Shown here one piece after another: positions 40,344-54,471 of a stretch of DNA of 64,000 nucleotides. The stretch covers positions 62,001 to 126,000 of the forward strand of contig NZ_JAQIIO010000004.1 of assembly GCF_027891095.1 (NCBI RefSeq), in the 5' to 3' direction. Under the pieces are notes generated by a model, which did not search any database, was not told where the DNA came from, and saw nothing but the letters and a program-made list of their open reading frames with translations. The position numbers and the translations under genes are program-made. Each line of letters starts with the position of its first letter. Position 1 is the first letter of the stretch. This DNA is from Aliiroseovarius salicola (GTDB lineage Bacteria; Pseudomonadota; Alphaproteobacteria; Rhodobacterales; Rhodobacteraceae).

Positions 40344-40419
40344 GCCCCTATAGCTCAGCTGGTAGAGCAACTGATTTGTAATCAGTAGGTCCGCGGTTCA
40401 AGTCCGTGTGGGGGCACCA
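40344..40419 (+). tRNA. tRNA-Thr (anticodon TGT)
   Basis: A complete 76-base cloverleaf with encoded CCA. The acceptor GCCCCTA pairs with TGGGGGC, the D-arm is AGCTCAGCTGGTAGAGC, the anticodon stem CTGAT/ATCAG encloses TTTGTAA with anticodon TGT, and the T-arm is CGCGGTTCAAGTCCGTG. It reads ACA (and ACG-wobble-limited) threonine codons. Its 3' 47 bases are the left attachment site of the island, so integration has kept the gene intact. Confidence 0.96.
40373..40419 (+). repeat. attL: 3' end of tRNA-Thr
   Basis: The 47 bases from the anticodon stem to CCA are repeated at 54425-54471 with a single A/G difference (40400 versus 54452). Homology stops sharply on both sides. This is the usual footprint of a tyrosine integrase using a tRNA 3' end. 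Confidence 0.93.
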
Positions 40420-40500
40420 GATAACCTCATATATAATCAAATGCTTATACGAGAAATGCGCGTATTATTGGCCATGAGATGGTCGTGGATTTTGGCTTTT

Positions 40501-40520
40501 GGGGGACAAATGGGGGACAA
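40501..40520 (+). repeat. Tandem GGGGGACAA repeats, left arm
   Basis: Two copies of GGGGGACAA at 40501-40509 and 40512-40520, 11 bases apart, lie about 80 bases inside attL. The same motif is paired at 54221-54240 and single at 54304-54312. One-turn spacing and presence near both ends suggest integrase arm-binding sites. Confidence 0.6.
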
Positions 40521-41264: not shown

Positions 41265-41978
41265 ATGCAGGACCGATACGCGGGTGATGTCGGAGATTAT
41301 GTGAAGCTCGGACTGCTCAGGGCATTGGGAAAAGGTCGGCAAACTGGTGTGGTCTGGTATCGGTTCCCCGACGAAGACCACAATAATGATGGTCGCCACG
41401 TTAAATATCTCTCTCAGCCAGAGAGATACAGGTATCTCGATCCTGATCTGTATGATCACTTGCGAAAAGTGGTGGTCAGCGCCCGCACTGTTAGCTCGCT
41501 GCTGCCCACGCTGCCCGGTGCTGTATCCGTTGGAAACAGCGTTGATAGTGGTGTTGTTCCCGCGCGCCTGAGGCGCGATTGGAGGCGAACTTGGTTTGAT
41601 CGTGCTCTCCGCGAAGTCTCAGGTTGTGACATCGTCTTTGCGGATCCTGACAATGGTATCGTAGATGACGCGGACACAAGAAAGAGGTCAGCAAAGTACG
41701 GCAAGCAAATACCGTTGAACGAAGTGCAGACGTTGGCGGACGGGCGCTGCGCTGTGATCTACCACCACAACACTCGAAGGGCTGGAGGTCATGACGCAGA
41801 GGTCGACCATTGGCTTGGCAATTTTGGCGTACCGAGCATGGCAGTGCGAGCCACAGCTTATAGTCCGCGCACCTTCTTCGTGTTAAACCCGGATCACGAA
41901 ACGGTTTCTCGTGTGGTCAAGTTCTGTGAACGGTGGGGAAAAATGAAAGTCAGATTGCATACCGCGCATAGCAATTAA
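41265..41978 (+). CDS. Hypothetical protein, possible methyltransferase-like fold
   Basis: A 237-residue soluble protein beginning MQDRYAGDVGDYVKLGLLRAL. GAGGG precedes the ATG. The motif IVFADPDNGIV (about residue 125) has the position and flavour of the DPPY/DPPF catalytic loop of Rossmann methyltransferases such as RlmJ, and HHNTRRAGG follows, but the N-terminal SAM-binding glycine loop is not clear. Proteins with this start are widespread orphans in islands, as far as I recall. It is flanked by imperfect repeats (41141 and 42082), which hints at independent movement. No partner gene is obvious. Confidence 0.55.
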   Translation: MQDRYAGDVGDYVKLGLLRALGKGRQTGVVWYRFPDEDHNNDGRHVKYLSQPERYRYLDPDLYDHLRKVVVSARTVSSLLPTLPGAVSVGNSVDSGVVPARLRRDWRRTWFDRALREVSGCDIVFADPDNGIVDDADTRKRSAKYGKQIPLNEVQTLADGRCAVIYHHNTRRAGGHDAEVDHWLGNFGVPSMAVRATAYSPRTFFVLNPDHETVSRVVKFCERWGKMKVRLHTAHSN

Positions 41979-42119: not shown

Positions 42120-42335
42120 CCACCCCTAGGGGCACTCCGGCCATCTGCTTGGTATTTGTTATTGGACCCCGCGAGAAAATTTTCAGGGTAAAGCAACGGA
42201 CAGCATTATGCTCCGCGTCTTGAGCCAAACGAATTGCGGGCAACTCCTACACGCATAGACTGTTTTGAGGGTGCGCACCGGTCAAAGAGGTGCTAGCAAT
42301 TTACAAAAGTGAATTTCGAGTGGAGACAACCTGTC

Positions 42336-45083
42336 GTGAACGCCGTTGAGATTGAAGAAGCCATCACCGAATTGGCCGAGCAACCGTTTGACGCGATTGA
42401 ATTTCCTTACGACTTCTTGCTCGCCTTTGGAAACAAACAGACCACTCTCAAGCGCTTGCGGACTGGTGCATCAAACAAGTCCGATTTGAATGGCGTACTG
42501 CAGACCAATAACATCCACGTAAAGACCTGCCCCGCAGGCTCCGTGTCAGAGACATTGGCGGAACTCAAAGCAAGTCCAGCAACTACCAAAGCCAAAGCCA
42601 AGTTCATCCTTGCCACCGATGGCCAAACGCTTGAGGCAGAGGATCTGAATTCAGGTGAAACGATTGCCTGTGACTTCAAGGACTTCCCCGACCACTTCGG
42701 TTTCTTCCTGCCGCTCGCGGGCATCTCGACGGTCAAACAGATCCGCGAAAGCTCGTTTGACATCAAGGCAACAGGTCGCCTCAACCGCCTCTATGTCGAA
42801 CTTTTGAAAACCAACCCCGATTGGGGCACGGCAGAACGCCGCCATGACATGAACCACTTCATGGCGCGGCTGATCTTTCTGTTCTTTGCCGAGGACACCT
42901 CAATTCTGAACGGCGAAGACCTGTTCACCTCCACTGTCACACAGATGTCCGACAAGGACAGCTCGAACACGCACGAAGTTATCTCGGAACTGTTCCGCGC
43001 CATGAACACGGCCATTGAGGACCGGGCTACTGCAAACCTGCCCCGCTGGGCAGAGGTCTTCCCCTATGTGAACGGGGGGCTATTCTCGGGCAGCACCGAG
43101 GCACCCACGTTCTCTAAGATCGCGCGGTCGTACCTTGTGCATATCGGCTCGCTTGATTGGACCAAAATCAATCCCGACATCTTCGGCTCCATGATCCAAG
43201 CTGTGGCGGATGATGAGGAACGCGGCGCTTTGGGGATGCACTACACCTCTGTACCCAACATCCTGAAGGTGCTGAACCCGCTCTTCCTCGATGACCTGAA
43301 CGCGCAGCTTGAGGCGGCGGGCGATAACAAGCGGAAGCTCGACAATCTGCGCAAACGCATGTCGAAAATCCGCGTGTTTGATCCGGCTTGCGGTTCGGGC
43401 AACTTCCTTGTCATCGCCTATAAGGAAATGCGCGCAATTGAGGCGAAGGTGAATGCTTTTTGTGGCCAACCGGATCGTCGTTCTGAGATCCCCCTGACCA
43501 ATTTTCGTGGGATCGAGCTGCGCGATTTTCCGGCTGAGATCGCCCGCCTTGCCCTGATCATCGCAGAATACCAATGCGACGTGACTTATCGCGGGCACAA
43601 GGACGCGCTGGCGGCCTTCCTACCGCTTGATGCAGAGAACTGGATTACTCAGGGCAACGCCTTGCGGCTCGATTGGCTGAGCATTTGCCCCCCGACTTCG
43701 AGAGCCGTGAAGTTTCAAGCGGATGACCTATTCATGTCCCCGCTGGAACAGGCGCAGATGGATTTCAAGAACGAAGGGGGCGAGACCTATATCTGCGGCA
43801 ACCCGCCTTATCTTGGATCCACTTGGCAAAGCAAAGAACAGAAAGAAGACCTGAAAGCGATCTTTGACGGGCGGGTGAAAAGCTGGAAGTCGCTGGACTA
43901 TGTGGCAGGTTGGTTTATGAAAGCCGCCGATTTCGGCCAGCACACCGATTGCACCGCCGCCTTCGTGTCCACCAATTCCATCTGTCAGGGGCAGCAGGTG
44001 CCGATCCTCTGGCCCGCAATCTTTGCCACGGGCCATCATATCAGCTTTGCCCATACCTCGTTCAAATGGGCCAACCTCGCCAGCCACAATGCAGGTGTAA
44101 CTGTGGCCATCATTGCCGTGTCAAACATGACGAACCAAACGCGCAGGATTTACAGCCTGAATGCCGAAGGTGAAGCAGTGATGAAAGAGGTGGAGAACAT
44201 TAACGCCTACTTGATTTCTGCCCCTAACGTAATCGTGGGAAAAGCGATGAAACCTCTTACGGAGGTCAGTACGATGGACTTTGGCAATAAGGCCGACGAT
44301 GGAGGCCACCTGACACTTTCCTCAGCCGAGCTGGAGGCTTTGAAGCTACCATCAGGCGCGAAGAATAAGTTTATCAAGCGGTTTCTTGGATCGAAGGAAC
44401 TCATCAACGGCGAACCAAGGTATTGCGTATGGATTGATGATGATGATCTAGATCAAGCGAGAAGTATTGCAGCTTTGGATGCGCAGATCGAAAAAGTGAA
44501 AGCGGCGCGATTAAGTAGTAAAGACGCTTACGCTCGTAGTCTGGCAAGCAGGCCCCATCAATTCAAAACGCCCCGAAGTGCCGATCGGACAGTGATTGTA
44601 ACCCCACGTGTTAGTTCAGAACACCGCCCATTTTTGCCCGTGGAATACTTGACCACTGGTTCTATCATCGGCGACCGAAACTTCGCCCTCTACGATGCCC
44701 CGCTCTGGAACATGGCGCTGATAGCCTCGCGCTTACATTGGGTCTGGATCGGTACGGTCTGCGTGCGGTTGGAAATGCGCTTCAGCTATTCCAATACCCT
44801 GGGCTGGAACACCTTTCCAGTCCCCAAATTGACCGAGAAAAACAAGGCCGATCTAACCCGCTGCGCCGAAGACATCCTCTTGGCCCGCGAGGCGCATTTC
44901 CCCGCTACGATCGCCGACCTCTACAAACCAGACGCCATGCCCGAAAACCTCCGAGCCGCCCACGATCGCAACGACGAAGTGCTGGAACGCATCTACATAG
45001 GCCGCCGCTTCCGCAACGACACAGAACGGCTGGAAAAACTGTTCGAGCTTTATACCAAGATGACGACGAAGGTGGCGGAATGA
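42336..45083 (+). CDS. MmeI-type adenine-N6 DNA methyltransferase
   Basis: A 915-residue class I SAM-dependent DNA methylase. Motif I FDPACGSGNFLVIAY is at about 347-361, motif IV NPPYLGS at about 488, giving an N6-adenine methylase of the gamma class. The helical spacer (FPDHFGFFLPLAGI, NHFMARLIFLFFAEDTSI) before the methylase and the C-terminal specificity part (HWVWIGTVCVRLEMRFSYSNTLGWNTFPVP) follow the MmeI plan of N-domain, spacer, methylase, TRD and C-domain. MmeI's N-terminal nuclease motif is not evident: the nearest, CDFKDF, is not in the expected context. I use GTG at 42336, since family members start MNAVEIEEAI; another GTG lies at 42309. The stop overlaps the next gene (ATGA). Confidence 0.88.
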   Translation: MNAVEIEEAITELAEQPFDAIEFPYDFLLAFGNKQTTLKRLRTGASNKSDLNGVLQTNNIHVKTCPAGSVSETLAELKASPATTKAKAKFILATDGQTLEAEDLNSGETIACDFKDFPDHFGFFLPLAGISTVKQIRESSFDIKATGRLNRLYVELLKTNPDWGTAERRHDMNHFMARLIFLFFAEDTSILNGEDLFTSTVTQMSDKDSSNTHEVISELFRAMNTAIEDRATANLPRWAEVFPYVNGGLFSGSTEAPTFSKIARSYLVHIGSLDWTKINPDIFGSMIQAVADDEERGALGMHYTSVPNILKVLNPLFLDDLNAQLEAAGDNKRKLDNLRKRMSKIRVFDPACGSGNFLVIAYKEMRAIEAKVNAFCGQPDRRSEIPLTNFRGIELRDFPAEIARLALIIAEYQCDVTYRGHKDALAAFLPLDAENWITQGNALRLDWLSICPPTSRAVKFQADDLFMSPLEQAQMDFKNEGGETYICGNPPYLGSTWQSKEQKEDLKAIFDGRVKSWKSLDYVAGWFMKAADFGQHTDCTAAFVSTNSICQGQQVPILWPAIFATGHHISFAHTSFKWANLASHNAGVTVAIIAVSNMTNQTRRIYSLNAEGEAVMKEVENINAYLISAPNVIVGKAMKPLTEVSTMDFGNKADDGGHLTLSSAELEALKLPSGAKNKFIKRFLGSKELINGEPRYCVWIDDDDLDQARSIAALDAQIEKVKAARLSSKDAYARSLASRPHQFKTPRSADRTVIVTPRVSSEHRPFLPVEYLTTGSIIGDRNFALYDAPLWNMALIASRLHWVWIGTVCVRLEMRFSYSNTLGWNTFPVPKLTEKNKADLTRCAEDILLAREAHFPATIADLYKPDAMPENLRAAHDRNDEVLERIYIGRRFRNDTERLEKLFELYTKMTTKVAE

Positions 45084-45493
45084 AGAAGGTTCGCGTCGAT
45101 TACAAAGATCTCAATGATCGTCAAAAGGAAAACTACAACTTCCAAAAGGTAGCGGCGCGTTTGGCGGATTATGGCTATAATTCCATCAGGCTTTCCGACG
45201 ATTACAATGGAGCGGATTTCATTGCCTTGCATATTGATGGCGAAAGCATGTTGCGAATTCAGCTTAAGGGGCGAATGACATTCCACGAAAAATACTATGG
45301 GAAAGGGCTGTATATTGCATTCCGTCAAGATGAGGATGTCTACGTCTATCCTCATGATGCTTTGCGTGAGGAAATGTTGGTGAATGGGTATACGGAAGCC
45401 TCGAATTCCATTGTGTGGGTGGAGAAGGGTAGCCGCAGTTGGCGACGTGTCCCTCAGAAGCTTTTGCCATTGCTCGAGAAATACAAATTGTAA
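45080..45493 (+). CDS. Small PD-(D/E)XK-like protein
   Basis: A 137-residue protein starting MKKVRVDYKD, overlapping the methylase stop by four bases. The core YNGADFIALHIDG, then LRIQLKGRMTF (residues 42-68) has the spacing of a PD-(D/E)XK nuclease: Asp46, Gln61-x-Lys63, with Glu17 in an N-terminal helix. Gln replacing Glu at the second position is known in some active members. The C-terminal part (YVYPHDALREEML, then WRRVPQKLLPLLEKYKL) is consistent with a small alpha/beta fold. It may cut DNA or RNA, or recognise DNA ends. No family name can be given, and activity is inference. Confidence 0.6.
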   Translation: MKKVRVDYKDLNDRQKENYNFQKVAARLADYGYNSIRLSDDYNGADFIALHIDGESMLRIQLKGRMTFHEKYYGKGLYIAFRQDEDVYVYPHDALREEMLVNGYTEASNSIVWVEKGSRSWRRVPQKLLPLLEKYKL

Positions 45494-45502
45494 GGTAATT
45501 TC

Positions 45503-47551
45503 ATGACCAAATCAGTTCCCTCCGTCTCCGTCACCTATGAGCAAAACCGTTCATCGACCACGTCGAATGAATTGGGCATGCGTAAGATGCAGGAGCGCGC
45601 CTATGAGATGCGGGGCGAGCAATACTTGCTGATCAAATCGCCACCTGCATCAGGCAAATCGCGCGCATTGATGTTTATCGCGCTCGACAAGCTGCACAAT
45701 CAAGGTCTGAAACAGGCCATTGTGGTAGTGCCCGAAAAGTCGATCGGATCGAGCTTTAACAACGAGCCGCTGAGCAAGTTTGGTTTTTGGGCGGACTGGC
45801 AGGTAGAACCGCAATGGAACCTGTGCAACGCGCCCGGTGGGGATGACGGAAAGGTTGGCGCGGTCGGCAGGTTTCTAGACAGCGATGATCAAGTCTTAGT
45901 TTGCACTCACGCAACCTTTCGCTTCGCTGTCGATAAATTCGGCATCGAGGTCTTTGACGATCGGGTGATTGCAGTGGACGAATTCCACCACGTCTCCGCC
46001 AACCCTGACAACAAACTCGGCGCACATCTGGGCGCGTTCATTGCCCGCGACAAAGTGCATCTTGTCGCCATGACCGGATCTTATTTCCGGGGCGATGCCG
46101 AGGCCGTTCTGTCGCCCGAGGACGAGGCTAAGTTCGAAACCGTCACATACACCTATTATGAGCAACTCAATGGTTATGAGCATCTGAAAACGCTCGATAT
46201 CGGGTATTTCTTTTACTCCGGATCATATGCGGACAGCATTTTGGAGGTGCTTGATCCGCATGAGAAAACGATTTTGCATATCCCCAACGTAAACTCTCGT
46301 GAAAGCACCAAGGACAAGCATCGTGAGGTTGAGCACATTATTGATGCGCTTGGAGAGTGGAAGGGGCTGGATCCTGAAACCGGCTTTCAACTTGTGGAAA
46401 CGCCTGAAGGTCGGATCTTGAAGATTGCTGATCTTGTTGATGACGAAGCGGTGAAAAGAGACAGGGTTTCCGCCGCGCTGAAAGATCCTGCACAGAAAAA
46501 CAACCGCGAACACGTCGATATCATCATTGCCCTTGGCATGGCAAAAGAGGGGTTCGACTGGATCTGGTGTGAGCATGCACTAACAGTGGGTTACCGTGCT
46601 AGCCTAACCGAGATCGTGCAGATCATTGGTAGGGCCACCCGTGATGCCAAAGGGAAAACAAAGGCGCGCTTTACCAATCTGATCGCCGAACCCGATGCTG
46701 GTGAAGAAGCGGTCACCGAGGCTGTGAACGACACCCTAAAGGCCATTGCTGCCAGCCTTCTCATGGAACAGGTCTTGGCCCCAAGGTTCAATTTCACCCC
46801 CAAGACCACGACAAGCGGCCCGCTTGATGGGTTCGACTATGGCGAAGGGGGCTACAACCCTGACAGGGAAAACGTGGGGTTTGACGCCGCTACCGGTCAA
46901 ATCCAGATGGAAATTAAGGGGCTTGCCGAACCTAAGAGCGAATACGCCCAACGGATATGTAGCGAAGATCTGAACGAAGTAATTACGGCCTTTGTTCAGG
47001 ACAAGACCACGATCGAGCGCGGATTGTTCGATGACGAAATGGTCCCCGAGGAACTAACGCAGGTTCGCATGGGGAAAATTGTTGGAACAAAATTTCCTGA
47101 GCTTGATGCCGAAGACCAGGAAGCTGTGCGCCAGCACGCCATTGCGGCACTGAACCTGACACAGAAAGCCAAGGAAATTGCCACATCAGATGATGGTGAT
47201 GACGAGCCAAGTGCCAACACAGCACTGATTGATGGTGTGCGCAAATTTGCAATGGATGTGCGGGAACTCGATATCGACCTGATTGACCGGATCAACCCAT
47301 TTGGCGAGGCGTATTCTATCCTAGCCAAAACCATGAGCGAAGATAGTCTCAAGCAGGTCCAAGCTGTCATTTCTGCTAAAAAGGTGAAGCTATCACCCGA
47401 TGAGGCGCGGGATCTCGCAAGGCGCGCCGCGAAGTTCAAAGAAGAGCGTGGGCGGCTTCCATCAATCACCTCACCGGATGCGTGGGAGAAAAAGATGGCG
47501 GAGGGTGTTGCATTTCTCGTGCGGATGAAACAGGAGGCCGCAGATGCCTAA
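45503..47551 (+). CDS. SF2 DEAD/DEAH-type helicase
   Basis: A 682-residue ATP-dependent nucleic-acid translocase. Motif I is SPPASGKSRA (46-55), motif II VDEFHH (about 157), motif III MTGSYFRG (about 190), motif V AKEGFDWIWCEHAL (about 345) and motif VI QIIGRATRD (about 372). The C-terminal 250 residues, with coiled charge-rich helices (LTQKAKEIATSDDGDDEPS), are of unknown role. The architecture resembles ResIII/UvrB-type helicases seen in restriction and defence systems. It lies nine bases after the PD-(D/E)XK-like gene and overlaps the GIY-YIG gene by eight bases. Confidence 0.88.
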   Translation: MTKSVPSVSVTYEQNRSSTTSNELGMRKMQERAYEMRGEQYLLIKSPPASGKSRALMFIALDKLHNQGLKQAIVVVPEKSIGSSFNNEPLSKFGFWADWQVEPQWNLCNAPGGDDGKVGAVGRFLDSDDQVLVCTHATFRFAVDKFGIEVFDDRVIAVDEFHHVSANPDNKLGAHLGAFIARDKVHLVAMTGSYFRGDAEAVLSPEDEAKFETVTYTYYEQLNGYEHLKTLDIGYFFYSGSYADSILEVLDPHEKTILHIPNVNSRESTKDKHREVEHIIDALGEWKGLDPETGFQLVETPEGRILKIADLVDDEAVKRDRVSAALKDPAQKNNREHVDIIIALGMAKEGFDWIWCEHALTVGYRASLTEIVQIIGRATRDAKGKTKARFTNLIAEPDAGEEAVTEAVNDTLKAIAASLLMEQVLAPRFNFTPKTTTSGPLDGFDYGEGGYNPDRENVGFDAATGQIQMEIKGLAEPKSEYAQRICSEDLNEVITAFVQDKTTIERGLFDDEMVPEELTQVRMGKIVGTKFPELDAEDQEAVRQHAIAALNLTQKAKEIATSDDGDDEPSANTALIDGVRKFAMDVRELDIDLIDRINPFGEAYSILAKTMSEDSLKQVQAVISAKKVKLSPDEARDLARRAAKFKEERGRLPSITSPDAWEKKMAEGVAFLVRMKQEAADA

Positions 47552-48737
47552 AGGATTTACCGAGGAAGATGATGCGCTTTTGGCGGAATTGGGCGTTGAG
47601 GTAGAAGCCAAGAAAACTGCAGCGCGTACACCGCGCGAAGAACGTATTATCGCGGGTTTTGAGGAAATCCTGCGTTTTGTGGAAAAAAATGGCCGTGCCC
47701 CGCAACATGGGGAAGATCGAGACATCTTCGAGCGGCTCTACGCCGCCCGTCTTGACCAATTGCGCGAACTGAATGAAGGCGAGGATCTGATTGCTCCCTT
47801 GGATTTGCACGGATTGTTGACAGACATGGCATCACCCAAGCTCTCAGAAATCGATAATCTTGATGATGACGCCCTTCTTGCGGAATTGGGCATTGAAGTC
47901 GCAGCATCGGATATTACCAAACTCAAACATGTGCGTTCTTCTGCCGATAAAAAGGCAGCAGAAGAGATTGCTGGACGCAACAAATGCGAAGATTTCGACA
48001 AGTTCCGACCTTTCTTCGAGCAGGTTCAGAAAGAGCTAGACGCGGGTCTTCGAGAAACGCGCAAGTTTGAACTCAAGGCAGAAATCGAGGCTGGGCGGTT
48101 TTTCATCGTCGGTGGACAAAAGGCTTATGTAGCCGAGAAGGGAGAGGTCACAATAAACGATCAAGGGCGGACGGATGCCCGCCTGCGCGTCATTTTTGAC
48201 AATGGCACAGAAAGCAACATGCTCATGCGATCCCTGCAGCGCTCGCTGAATGCGGATGGAGAAGCTGGTCGAAGGATAACAGAGCCGACTGCTGGTCCAC
48301 TGTTTTCGGATCAATCCGCCGATGGTGATGAGGTAAGCGGAACTATTTATGTCCTTCGTAGTCAATCTGATCATCCGATGGTGGCCGAGAACAGAGAGCT
48401 TATTCACAAAATTGGTGTGACGAGTAATGACGTTGAAAAACGCGTGGCTGGCGCTCAACTTCAGACCACTTTTCTTATGGCCAAGGTCGATATCGTGGCC
48501 ACTTACGATCTGTACAACATCAATCGTACTAAACTGGAAAACCTCCTGCACCGCATATTTGCGCCCGCACAATTAGATATCGAAATCCCTGATCGATTGG
48601 GCCGACCTATGAAGCCTAAAGAGTGGTTCCTAGTGCCCTTGTTTGTGATTGAAGAAGCGGTCGAACGGATCAAAGACGGCACAATCGCGAGCTACATTTA
48701 TGATCGGAAAACAGCTTCGTTGGTTTTAAGAGGCTAG
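47544..48737 (+). CDS. GIY-YIG (T5orf172) nuclease-domain protein
   Basis: A 397-residue protein. The C-terminal domain (about 265-370) is a T5orf172-type GIY-YIG nuclease: GTIYVLRSQS (variant GIY strand), HKIGVTSNDVEKRVA with the catalytic Arg region, and KLENLLHRIF with the catalytic Glu. WFLVPLFVIEEAVERI follows. The N-terminus has a duplicated motif, DDALLAELGVEV at 9-20 and DDALLAELGIEV at 108-119, perhaps two docking helices. The middle (REERIIAGFEEI) is helical. It is the last gene of the cassette and overlaps the helicase stop (ATGCCTAA), so the two are coupled. It is the most convincing nuclease of the set. Confidence 0.85.
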   Translation: MPKGFTEEDDALLAELGVEVEAKKTAARTPREERIIAGFEEILRFVEKNGRAPQHGEDRDIFERLYAARLDQLRELNEGEDLIAPLDLHGLLTDMASPKLSEIDNLDDDALLAELGIEVAASDITKLKHVRSSADKKAAEEIAGRNKCEDFDKFRPFFEQVQKELDAGLRETRKFELKAEIEAGRFFIVGGQKAYVAEKGEVTINDQGRTDARLRVIFDNGTESNMLMRSLQRSLNADGEAGRRITEPTAGPLFSDQSADGDEVSGTIYVLRSQSDHPMVAENRELIHKIGVTSNDVEKRVAGAQLQTTFLMAKVDIVATYDLYNINRTKLENLLHRIFAPAQLDIEIPDRLGRPMKPKEWFLVPLFVIEEAVERIKDGTIASYIYDRKTASLVLRG

Positions 48738-52610: not shown

Positions 52611-53000
52611 CTATGATTGTTCCCGAAGATCCCGAAGCTTGCGAAATCCTCTCGATACCGACTGTTCAATAGTGGTCAGTGCTGGCCCAAAAAGTGCCTT
52701 CATTAGAGAAATCTTCTCATCGAACTTTCCCTCGTCGTAGGTGCCAAGTTTGGTGTGCTCGTGTCTGGTGCGTTCTATCCAGTCCCTGTCGTAGTAGGCG
52801 GTCTTGAGTTGTTCAATTGTTTGGATGCGTGTTTTGAACAGGTCCGGTCGATCCCCCATAAGGCGTTCAACCCACTCCGCTCGTTGCACATCTACACTAT
52901 CTTTTGGCGCTATTCGGCGACGACCACGGTTGGGCTTTGGTGGGGCACTAGATAACGCTTCAGCAAATAGCTGCGCGATTGCGCTTGGTTCTTCCGTCAT
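52611..53000 (-). CDS. Hypothetical protein coupled to the integrase
   Basis: A 129-residue charged helical protein (MTEEPSAIAQLFAEALSS, then RAEWVERLMGDRPDLFKTRIQTIEQLK). Its ATG overlaps the integrase stop (53000/52997) by four bases, so it is co-translated with it. No helix-turn-helix is clear. A role as accessory to integration is suggested only by position. Confidence 0.62.
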   Translation of the reverse strand: MTEEPSAIAQLFAEALSSAPPKPNRGRRRIAPKDSVDVQRAEWVERLMGDRPDLFKTRIQTIEQLKTAYYDRDWIERTRHEHTKLGTYDEGKFDEKISLMKALFGPALTTIEQSVSRGFRKLRDLREQS

Positions 53001-54202
53001 TGCGCGATCCGTACAACGGTGCCTTGCGCGCCCGTCACCATATCGGCCCAGCGTTCCAGCGCTCGCGCCCGCTGCGGTAGTTGTTCCGCTTGGTTGTAAA
53101 CGCGCGCAACTGCCGATGGTGCAGATCCGGTGGCGGCGTGATTGAGGATCCGGTCAACAACGCTTTCGGGTTCGCCTGCTTCTGCGAGCGCCGTTGCCAT
53201 CGCCGTGCGAAAATCGTGAAGTCGCCAAGGTTCAAATCCTTCGCCTAGCAATTCGTCAAAGCGCCTTTTCATTCGCGAAATGCCCGACACAGGTGTGATC
53301 CCGGTTGTTGTGAAGACTAGGCCGTTTCTGTTGCCTCTCAAGGCTTCAAGTTCAGCCAGTGCAGGTGCTGATAAATGCGTGATATGTGGACGGGCATTCT
53401 TGGTTGTGCTGCCAGCTTTAGTGATGCGCGTAGCATCAAGATCAATCTCATCCCAGCGCAGGCCGACAATCTCTCCACGGCGTTGACCTGTGAGAAGTAG
53501 AAGTCGCATCAGTGGCCCCCACAGCGGCCCTAGTTCATAGCTGGTCCTGTAGATGGCCTGCACCTCTTCGAGGTTGAGAACTCGCTCCCGTGCGCTTTCC
53601 TTTGTTGGCTTGGCTAGACGAAGCCCGATGTGATCATCAAGGTAGCCTCGCATCCATGCCCAACTGGTAAACGCGACTAGCGCCGCACGGATACGGTTGG
53701 CGAATACCTTGCGCCCCGCCAATAGCTTCTCGTCGATTGCTGCCTGCAAATCGGAATGCGTCAGTTCTGATATGGGGAGATTGAGCTTTGATTGCAGTGC
53801 AGCCTCCAACTGGCGCTTTCGCTCGTTACCCGTACGAAGCTGGGAAAGGTGTAGTTCATTGTAGGTGTCGATGACTTGCTGCAAAGTGGATCGGTTCGCC
53901 TTTGCCGCTTCTTCTTTCAGGACACGCGCCTTCTCTAAGGCAACCCGGTCGATACCACGGGATGCCTCAGCCTCAATCTCAAGCGCAATGGCGCGGGCTT
54001 GCGCGAGCGATACTGCTGGCCAAGATCCGAGAGTGTGTTTGCGCTTCGGGCCACCCTTCACACGCTTCTCATACATCCAGACGGATTTCCCCGTCGCTGA
54101 TAGGCGTAGTCGAAGCCCCTTGCGCTTGGTATCTGAAACCTCAAGCCGCCCGGTTTCGGGAGGCGTCAGGCTCCTTAAAAATCTGTCGGTCAGGTCGTGC
54201 AT
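52997..54202 (-). CDS. P4-type tyrosine integrase
   Basis: A 401-residue site-specific recombinase that inserts and excises the element at tRNA-Thr. The N-terminal arm-binding domain is DUF4102-like (SDTKRKGLRLRLSATGKSVWMYEKRV, then RKHTLGSWPAVSLAQAR). The catalytic domain has Arg in LLTGQRRGEIVGLRW, HxxR in LHDFRTAMA, and the LNHAATG...ARVYN region with Tyr. The start at 54202 is set by AAGGAG nine bases upstream; the longer frame to 54292 is not needed. It reads away from attR. GGGGGACAA repeats lie in its promoter area (54221-54240, 54304). Confidence 0.93.
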   Translation of the reverse strand: MHDLTDRFLRSLTPPETGRLEVSDTKRKGLRLRLSATGKSVWMYEKRVKGGPKRKHTLGSWPAVSLAQARAIALEIEAEASRGIDRVALEKARVLKEEAAKANRSTLQQVIDTYNELHLSQLRTGNERKRQLEAALQSKLNLPISELTHSDLQAAIDEKLLAGRKVFANRIRAALVAFTSWAWMRGYLDDHIGLRLAKPTKESARERVLNLEEVQAIYRTSYELGPLWGPLMRLLLLTGQRRGEIVGLRWDEIDLDATRITKAGSTTKNARPHITHLSAPALAELEALRGNRNGLVFTTTGITPVSGISRMKRRFDELLGEGFEPWRLHDFRTAMATALAEAGEPESVVDRILNHAATGSAPSAVARVYNQAEQLPQRARALERWADMVTGAQGTVVRIAQ

Positions 54203-54220
54203 CACAGTCAAACTCCTTTT

Positions 54221-54240
54221 GGGGGACAACTGGGGGACAA
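54221..54240 (+). repeat. Tandem GGGGGACAA repeats, right arm
   Basis: Two copies (54221-54229 and 54232-54240) with the same 11-base spacing as on the left. A further single copy is at 54304-54312. They lie between the integrase start and attR, where the integrase N-domain could bind and also repress its own promoter. Confidence 0.6.
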
Positions 54241-54303
54241 TTTTGACGCGCTTGTGTGACGCGACTTGATGCTTGATGACACAGTTATACACACATGATG
54301 ACT

Positions 54304-54424: not shown

Positions 54425-54471
54425 GATTTGTAATCAGTAGGTCCGCGGTTCGAGTCCGTGTGGGGGCACCA
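54425..54471 (+). repeat. attR: tRNA-Thr 3' fragment
   Basis: A copy of the last 47 bases of tRNA-Thr with one change (G at 54452). The 5' half of the gene is absent, so this is not a functional tRNA. It marks the right end of the element. Confidence 0.93.

Follow-up and report, generated by a model that had tools for sequence, protein, structure and literature searches.

A 64,000-nt stretch of the Aliiroseovarius salicola genome, called the window below, carries four consecutive genes encoding an MmeI-family adenine methylase, a 137-residue protein, a superfamily 2 (SF2) helicase and a T5orf172/GIY-YIG protein. All four lie on the same strand within an integrative element (Table 1) and are spaced, in this order, by a 4-bp overlap, a 9-bp gap and an 8-bp overlap, in exact agreement with the coordinates of a first-pass annotation made from the sequence alone. 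The methylase start was placed at the GTG at 42336, and not at a further in-frame GTG at 42309, because a GGAG (42322-42325) stands 10 nt ahead of the former. Genome searches found the four-gene operon in a single copy. Promoter and terminator scans gave scores no higher than the shuffled mean.

Table 1 Features of the window and database models matched by genes occupying the slot in relatives
Feature	Position	Strand	Basis
MmeI-family adenine methylase (DnmA/YeeA type)	42336..45083	+	Pfam PF20464-PF20467 and PF20473, PADLOC IIG model, motifs in 77 rows
Methylase target recognition domain, residues 629-832	44220..44831	+	Pfam PF20466; within first exchange zone
Variable slot, methylase stop to helicase start	45084..45502	+	junction comparisons across relatives
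137-residue PD-(D/E)XK-like accessory protein (predicted)	45080..45493	+	AlphaFold2 model, Foldseek, conserved E17/D46/Q61/K63; in variable slot
SF2 helicase, YeeB type	45503..47551	+	Pfam, motifs in 85 rows, plasmid relatives (one annotated YeeB)
T5orf172/GIY-YIG protein, YeeC type	47544..48737	+	Pfam; catalytic residues in 82/82 relatives
PDC-S26 (PDDEXK_4)	slot cargo		PADLOC
PDC-S05 (RhuM)	slot cargo		PADLOC
PDC-S02 (YhcG nuclease)	slot cargo		PADLOC
PDC-S11 (NucS-like)	slot cargo		PADLOC
PDC-S67	slot cargo		PADLOC
PD-T4-5 (Abi_2), from distant-clade locus	slot cargo		PADLOC
Retron-type reverse transcriptase models	slot cargo		PADLOC
tRNA-Thr gene	40344-40419		tRNA scan, Rfam
att-like 47-nt repeat, copy 1 (end of tRNA-Thr gene)	40373..40419	+	repeat search
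att-like 47-nt repeat, copy 2	54425..54471	+	direct repeat, 98% identical to copy 1
Tyrosine integrase of element	52997..54292	-	Pfam PF00589 and PF13356

The family assignments of the first-pass annotation were borne out for the three larger proteins. The methylase matched five MmeI Pfam domains above cut-off and the Type IIG model of PADLOC at 955 bits, and MmeI (PDB 5hr4) was its sole PDB sequence match at E 0.001. Its DPACGSG and NPP motifs were conserved in an alignment of 77 rows. Within the first 110 residues, only F23, T94, D95 and A101 were conserved in at least 97% of these rows; hence, no D...(D/E)xK nuclease motif, which was sought in the N-terminal part of the alignment, is kept by the methylase. 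The SF2 motifs of the helicase, namely the P-loop with K52, DEFHH, TGS, GMAKEGFDW and QIIGRxTRD, were intact across 85 rows, with the Pfam family ResIII just over cut-off and DEAD just under it. Some plasmid relatives of this helicase, such as that of locus L008, are annotated as "pseudomurein-binding repeat-containing protein"; the label is misleading because it derives from a short match to Pfam PMBR (28.8 bits). The third protein matched MUG113 and T5orf172 above cut-off, and its GIY-YIG residues Y269, K289, G291, R300 and E332 were present in all 82 relatives. PADLOC gave weak matches of the helicase to PbeA (2.1e-5) and of the GIY-YIG protein to PDC-S57 (5.1e-4), and PDB sequence searches with these two proteins returned nothing usable.

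These three families have been described together as the dnmA-yeeB-yeeC cluster of Bacillus subtilis, which has a homologue in Vibrio crassostreae. In the published accounts, which are cited here and below from excerpts, dnmA (yeeA) encodes an MmeI homologue without an endonuclease motif, yeeB a helicase and yeeC a T5orf172/GIY-YIG protein, and the gene order is conserved (PMC7261158, PMC9973331). The window has the same families, including a methylase without a nuclease motif, in identical order. Since the trio fits the published cluster by family and order, the core does not constitute a new system; it looks like a known dnmA-yeeB-yeeC type operon, with the small gene outside the core. This assignment rests on family, order and one plasmid relative annotated YeeB; the MmeI recognition-domain family matched B. 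subtilis, which was used as a control genome. Consequently, what stood of the earlier proposal was a restriction-modification (RM)-like, defence-type operon in an integrative element, whereas its claim to a new four-gene system gave way to this match with an existing named system, an outcome that the first-pass annotation had itself listed as a refutation.

In the window, the helicase does not directly follow the methylase, one gene intervening, and near relatives vary at this place. We measured the junctions in 91 helicase loci, comprising 75 from whole genomes, 15 from plasmids and the window. A slot was counted as filled when the methylase-helicase space exceeded 150 bp, close relatives were defined by a helicase at least 65% identical to that of the window, and a distant clade had about 40-51% identity. 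The plasmid loci were hand-picked from match lists, some for carrying the small gene, and rates therefore refer to the 75 loci from whole genomes. In the genome draws, a few helicase matches that were weak or partial were left out. L148, with a frame-broken methylase, was counted as having an empty slot, and L124, L125 and L147 have no methylase on the contig. Slot genes were called mechanically and their families depend on BLAST clustering; three families (F27, F31 and F44) were methylase remnants and stand outside the counts.

Wherever the contig included a methylase (88 loci), this lay upstream of the helicase. Among the 55 close whole-genome relatives, the slot was filled in 42, by 36 gene families, and empty in 13. 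The small family was found in 11 and was missing from the other 44, so that the four genes are not conserved as a set. With the plasmids and the window included, the slot was filled in 52 of 70 loci by 40 families, the small family being present in 15. In 37 of the 52 filled slots, the first gene shares 4 bp with the end of the methylase gene. At the other junction, the helicase and GIY-YIG genes overlapped, with no gene between them, in 67 of 68 loci measured; in the exception, L066, the GIY-YIG alignment begins at residue 21. The slot was filled in 4/18 loci of the distant clade. Four of the E. coli loci read have an intact methylase, and in these the slot was empty; of two further E. coli loci, one has no methylase and the other has a methylase broken by an insertion sequence.

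The genes found in the slot, here called cargo, were scanned through representatives of different families, 30 by Pfam and 20 by PADLOC. Seven of the 20 matched PADLOC models below 1e-10, and the models found are included in Table 1. PDC models were themselves defined through embedding in other systems (PMC12988326, PMC10855318), and matches to them are therefore not independent proof of defence. Pfam added AlbA_2 with HATPase, HEPN, BrnT, YafQ, CcdA with CcdB, zeta toxin, an IrrE-type peptidase and pentapeptide repeats, as well as PLD under cut-off; 10 of the 30 representatives had no Pfam match. Two slots of about 7 kb (L080 and L082) have seven families in common (F11-F17) around differing cargo, one with a reverse transcriptase; larger units seem to enter the slot position too.

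Genes were also seen ahead of the methylase. A VapC-like gene lies there in L008, L009, L107, L109, L110, L135 and L144-L146, and a HigA-like gene in L010, L061, L065, L123 and L126; these upstream toxin-antitoxin genes often overlap the methylase start by 4 bp. An open reading frame of at least 60 codons ending between -40 and +25 of the methylase start was present in 29 of 59 close relatives, some of them surely by chance. This frequency suggests that there may be a second accessory position ahead of the methylase; the window has no such reading frame.

Slot content was then followed on a tree of 67 helicase rows, which leaves out L012, L134 and L135 (short or broken helicase). At least 39 changes among 30 states were required, the least possible number being 29. 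The mean after shuffling was 46.9 and none of 200 shuffles was as low as 39; the observed number lies below the shuffles because near-copies have the same content. Presence of the small family changed at least 10 times on this tree and the filled or empty state at least 14 times. In L105, which is sister to the window with 92% helicase identity, the slot holds a PDDEXK_4 gene; L114 has the small gene where its sister L116 is empty, and L121 and L122 have the first slot gene in common and differ in the second.

Furthermore, DNA was compared in 14 pairs of loci. The 5' part of the methylase aligned in eight pairs, and in the other six one contig starts inside the methylase. In those eight pairs, a stretch of about 560-990 nt covering most of the recognition domain could not be aligned, except that in one of them a 138-nt piece aligned at 70%. 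Twelve pairs differ in their first cargo gene. In all of them, a block of 262-403 nt at the 3' end of the methylase aligned at 77-96% and broke off near the methylase stop codon, from 48 nt ahead of it to 9 nt past it. Homology returned 0-21 nt into the helicase gene, except in two pairs, which aligned again at the next piece they share within the slot. The operon has two separate exchange zones, one for specificity (the recognition domain) and one for cargo (the slot). Fragments of the methylase tail or the helicase head were found inside the slots of L072, L080, L110 and L135 (E <1e-9) and, more weakly, of L071, L109, L144 and L145 (E 1e-3 to 1e-5), and they look like scars of stacked insertions. 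These patterns suggest that homologous recombination in the flanking blocks would swap slot content.

The cargo gene of the window itself encodes the 137-residue protein. No family of PADLOC, Pfam or NCBIfam matched it at the limits used, and PDB sequence searches with the protein and with its alignment gave nothing usable. D46, Q61 and K63, which the first-pass annotation had picked out, and also E17 were invariant in an alignment of 58 sequences; among an initial 17 sequences, a copy from L071 deviated at E17 and Q61. The slot of this locus (L071, 9413-10572) holds two diverged copies of the small gene. Although D46 and K63 are invariant, Q61 stands at the position of the (D/E)xK motif that D or E usually takes. 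When an AlphaFold2 model of the protein (predicted local distance difference test score, pLDDT, 91.2; predicted template modelling score 0.85) was searched with Foldseek, PD-(D/E)XK nucleases came on top, with one such match at E <0.001. The best was I-Ssp6803I (E 3.7e-4), and further matches were archaeal Hjc (from 1.6e-3), a SPARDA nuclease, RecU and PvuII. Seven of the 58 members matched Pfam DUF4365 (best E 0.013), a family that we take to be PD-(D/E)XK-like and that gives a hint only. Taken together, the model predicts a PD-(D/E)XK-like fold.

The distribution of the small gene was examined in the best 80 of 108 relatives from a pattern-based genome scan, which favours close relatives. 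It lay between the methylase and the helicase in 40 loci and at a contig end in one; in the remaining 39, no core gene was found within 6 kb or the available stretch. Forty-eight of the 80 loci were from Alphaproteobacteria and the rest were spread across many phyla. The free copies do not appear to mark a second operon, as their 116 neighbours (32 of 39 loci) share just three pairs, two of which join the same two Chromobacterium loci. Pfam and PADLOC scans of 60 of these neighbours showed no Pfam family in more than two of them, among the best 25 of 126 and of 78 families; the neighbours include two C5 methylases and one Eco47II-type nuclease. We also considered that the small protein might replace a dead GIY-YIG nuclease. 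This was rejected, the GIY-YIG active site being kept both with the small gene (13 rows) and without it (69 rows).

Relatives of the helicase (E 0.001) were found in 18/385 genomes of the class, 24/398 of the phylum and 47/390 of the order, draws that overlap and in which a few matches are weak or partial. They also occurred in 264 of 72,556 plasmid records. With the relative from a Klebsiella plasmid (L150) as the query, 99 of 5,426 E. coli genomes matched, and in 90 the match covered at least 80% of the query. In two E. coli loci (L238 and L240), the three-gene cluster or its remnants adjoin IS26 and resistance genes. The small gene was rarer than the helicase, being found in 5/385 genomes of the class, one of which is that of the window, and in five plasmid records. 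Phage records gave two helicase matches, both short and partial, and in IMG/VR the small gene was found in two loci.

The operon is carried by a 14-kb element whose bounds are a 47-nt repeat of the tRNA-Thr end. The tRNA gene, the direct repeat and the integrase confirm the integrative element of the first-pass annotation. A 25-nt repeat (96%) lies just within each element end (40496-40520 and 54216-54240), and its copies are possibly arm sites of the integrase. Upstream of the operon, 41265-41978 encodes a 237-residue protein with zero Pfam matches. Element genes outside the four-gene set were scanned with Pfam, and PADLOC was run on the four proteins.

As described above, the core motifs are intact and the methylase has no nuclease motif; ATP-dependent restriction is therefore the best mechanism for the core. 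The locus is probably an ATP-dependent RM-like operon of the dnmA-yeeB-yeeC type with one embedded accessory gene. In such an operon, the methylase would read its target through the recognition domain and mark host DNA, presumably with N6-methyladenine by analogy with DnmA. At unmarked sites, the helicase would act as the motor and the GIY-YIG protein as the cutter. The 137-residue protein would be a separate, metal-dependent PD-(D/E)XK nuclease in an exchangeable slot, expressed with the operon, and would add a second nuclease or a back-up response rather than a core function. Beyond this, we tentatively propose, as a possibility clearly short of even chances, that the slot is an exchangeable bay for effectors. 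Recombination within the conserved 3' end of the methylase gene and 5' end of the helicase gene would keep exchanging second-line defence genes, independently of specificity swaps in the recognition domain; the RM core would guard the cargo, and the cargo would act when a phage blocks or evades the core, like PrrC in EcoprrI. Among these effectors would be the small PD-(D/E)XK family, perhaps with a tie to the helicase.

Several observations weigh against the favoured reading, an RM-like operon with one embedded accessory gene. The helicase structure model (mean pLDDT 64.2) was too poor for a fold search, and the Foldseek matches of the small protein are modest, the best E value being accompanied by TM-scores <0.5. 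The placement of the small gene is not random: it lies within 50 bp of the helicase in 36/40 operons, also where the methylase is followed by a different gene, whereas only 25/41 copies are equally close to the methylase. On the small-gene tree, slot and free copies are separated by 8 changes against 26.6 after shuffling; this tree has few columns and many unresolved forks, its starred branches force just 3 changes, and it leaves out L180 and L191 (broken small gene). The position beside the helicase, this clustering of the slot copies and the occurrence of the small gene in the operon across phyla as distant as Nitrospinota and Lentisphaerota are what a true four-part system would leave, in which the small protein and the helicase are obligate partners and form, within an RM operon, a nuclease-helicase pair resembling Hachiman. 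We consider such a system quite unlikely, given that most close relatives are without the small gene or have an empty slot, that the helicase tree requires at least 10 gains or losses of it, that almost half of its loci have no core gene nearby, and that the GIY-YIG active site is conserved whether or not the small gene is there. The window's own small gene is nearest to free copies by path on the poorly resolved tree. Because the small gene stands away from the operon in 39/80 loci and yet close to the helicase where it is in the operon, the small protein is an independent family with a liking for the slot position, and it may have a link with the helicase.

A further difficulty comes from B. 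subtilis, where three phages grew unchanged on the deletion strains, transformation was unaffected by dnmA deletion in earlier work, and the authors called the trio a relic (PMC9973331). If this applied here, the core would restrict nothing, its methylase being an orphan with regulatory effects and its helicase and nuclease being relics that are retained for other reasons. This is unlikely because a relic should decay, whereas the helicase motifs and the GIY-YIG catalytic residues are conserved in 85 and 82 rows, respectively. Moreover, V. crassostreae reportedly became more sensitive to some phages when its dnmA and yeeB homologues were deleted, and B. subtilis YeeB and YeeC are without stretches found in the Vibrio proteins (PMC9973331). 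Finally, the slot could be a tolerant landing place, transcribed and harmless to the operon, for selfish genes without a defence role, as the toxin-antitoxin genes among the cargo (BrnT, YafQ, CcdA/CcdB and zeta) and the representatives without a Pfam match would allow. The PADLOC matches of seven representatives to defence or candidate models, although partly circular for PDC, and the cargo's orientation on the operon strand with frequent 4-bp overlap of the methylase stop make this very unlikely.

The dnmA-yeeB-yeeC cluster is widespread, yet it has been set aside as a relic following the negative B. subtilis tests. Conserved catalytic sites together with a slot for at least 40 cargo families in this sample instead suggest that operons of this type are a working platform. 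The slot cargo comprises candidate defence genes, some without a database model, that can be compared on one common backbone. With two exchange zones in one operon, whether embedded genes are guarded or merely carried becomes directly testable.

For the cluster itself, a Type I-like RM system was reportedly proposed by Morgan in 2009 and a defence role by Makarova in 2011, both known to us through citing papers. The operon of the window differs from it in the extra gene that splits the methylase and the helicase, and the excerpts of the published account describe no slot. They do mention that uncharacterised proteins near dnmA homologues might, in some bacteria, be part of the locus (PMC9973331), and this mention is a forerunner of the slot described here. 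With MmeI (Type IIL/IIG), the methylase shares the methylase, recognition and C-terminal domains; the N-terminal D...(D/E)xK is lacking from the window methylase, so that a nuclease would be a separate protein. PADLOC scoring of the four proteins upheld the earlier judgement that sets the operon apart from BREX, DISARM and classical Type I systems: PglX and DrmMI matched the methylase more weakly than the IIG model did, and none of the four proteins was identified as the product of pglZ, brxL, drmA, drmB or drmC. Neither the small protein nor the helicase had a HamA or HamB match in PADLOC, and Hachiman was rejected. The nearest solved structures to the small-protein model are the archaeal Hjc resolvases and the homing endonuclease I-Ssp6803I, and its E..D..xxK layout is like that of Hjc. 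The small protein differs from both in having Q61 for D/E, in the 13-22% identity over the aligned parts and in the low TM-scores.

Among the matches listed from open PMC papers, we found no account of a slot in a YeeABC-type operon. The embedding of defence genes in other defence operons is already published as an idea. PrrC is embedded in EcoprrI (PMC12707154) and DarTG2 in a Type I RM operon, "guilt-by-embedding" has been described (PMC12255303), and there is further precedent (PMC12988326). As in these cases and in the PDC and HEC models of PADLOC, a gene or gene pair lies within a multi-gene defence operon. The present case differs from them in its host operon, in a small protein family that has no PADLOC model, and in one fixed junction at which at least 40 cargo families were sampled.

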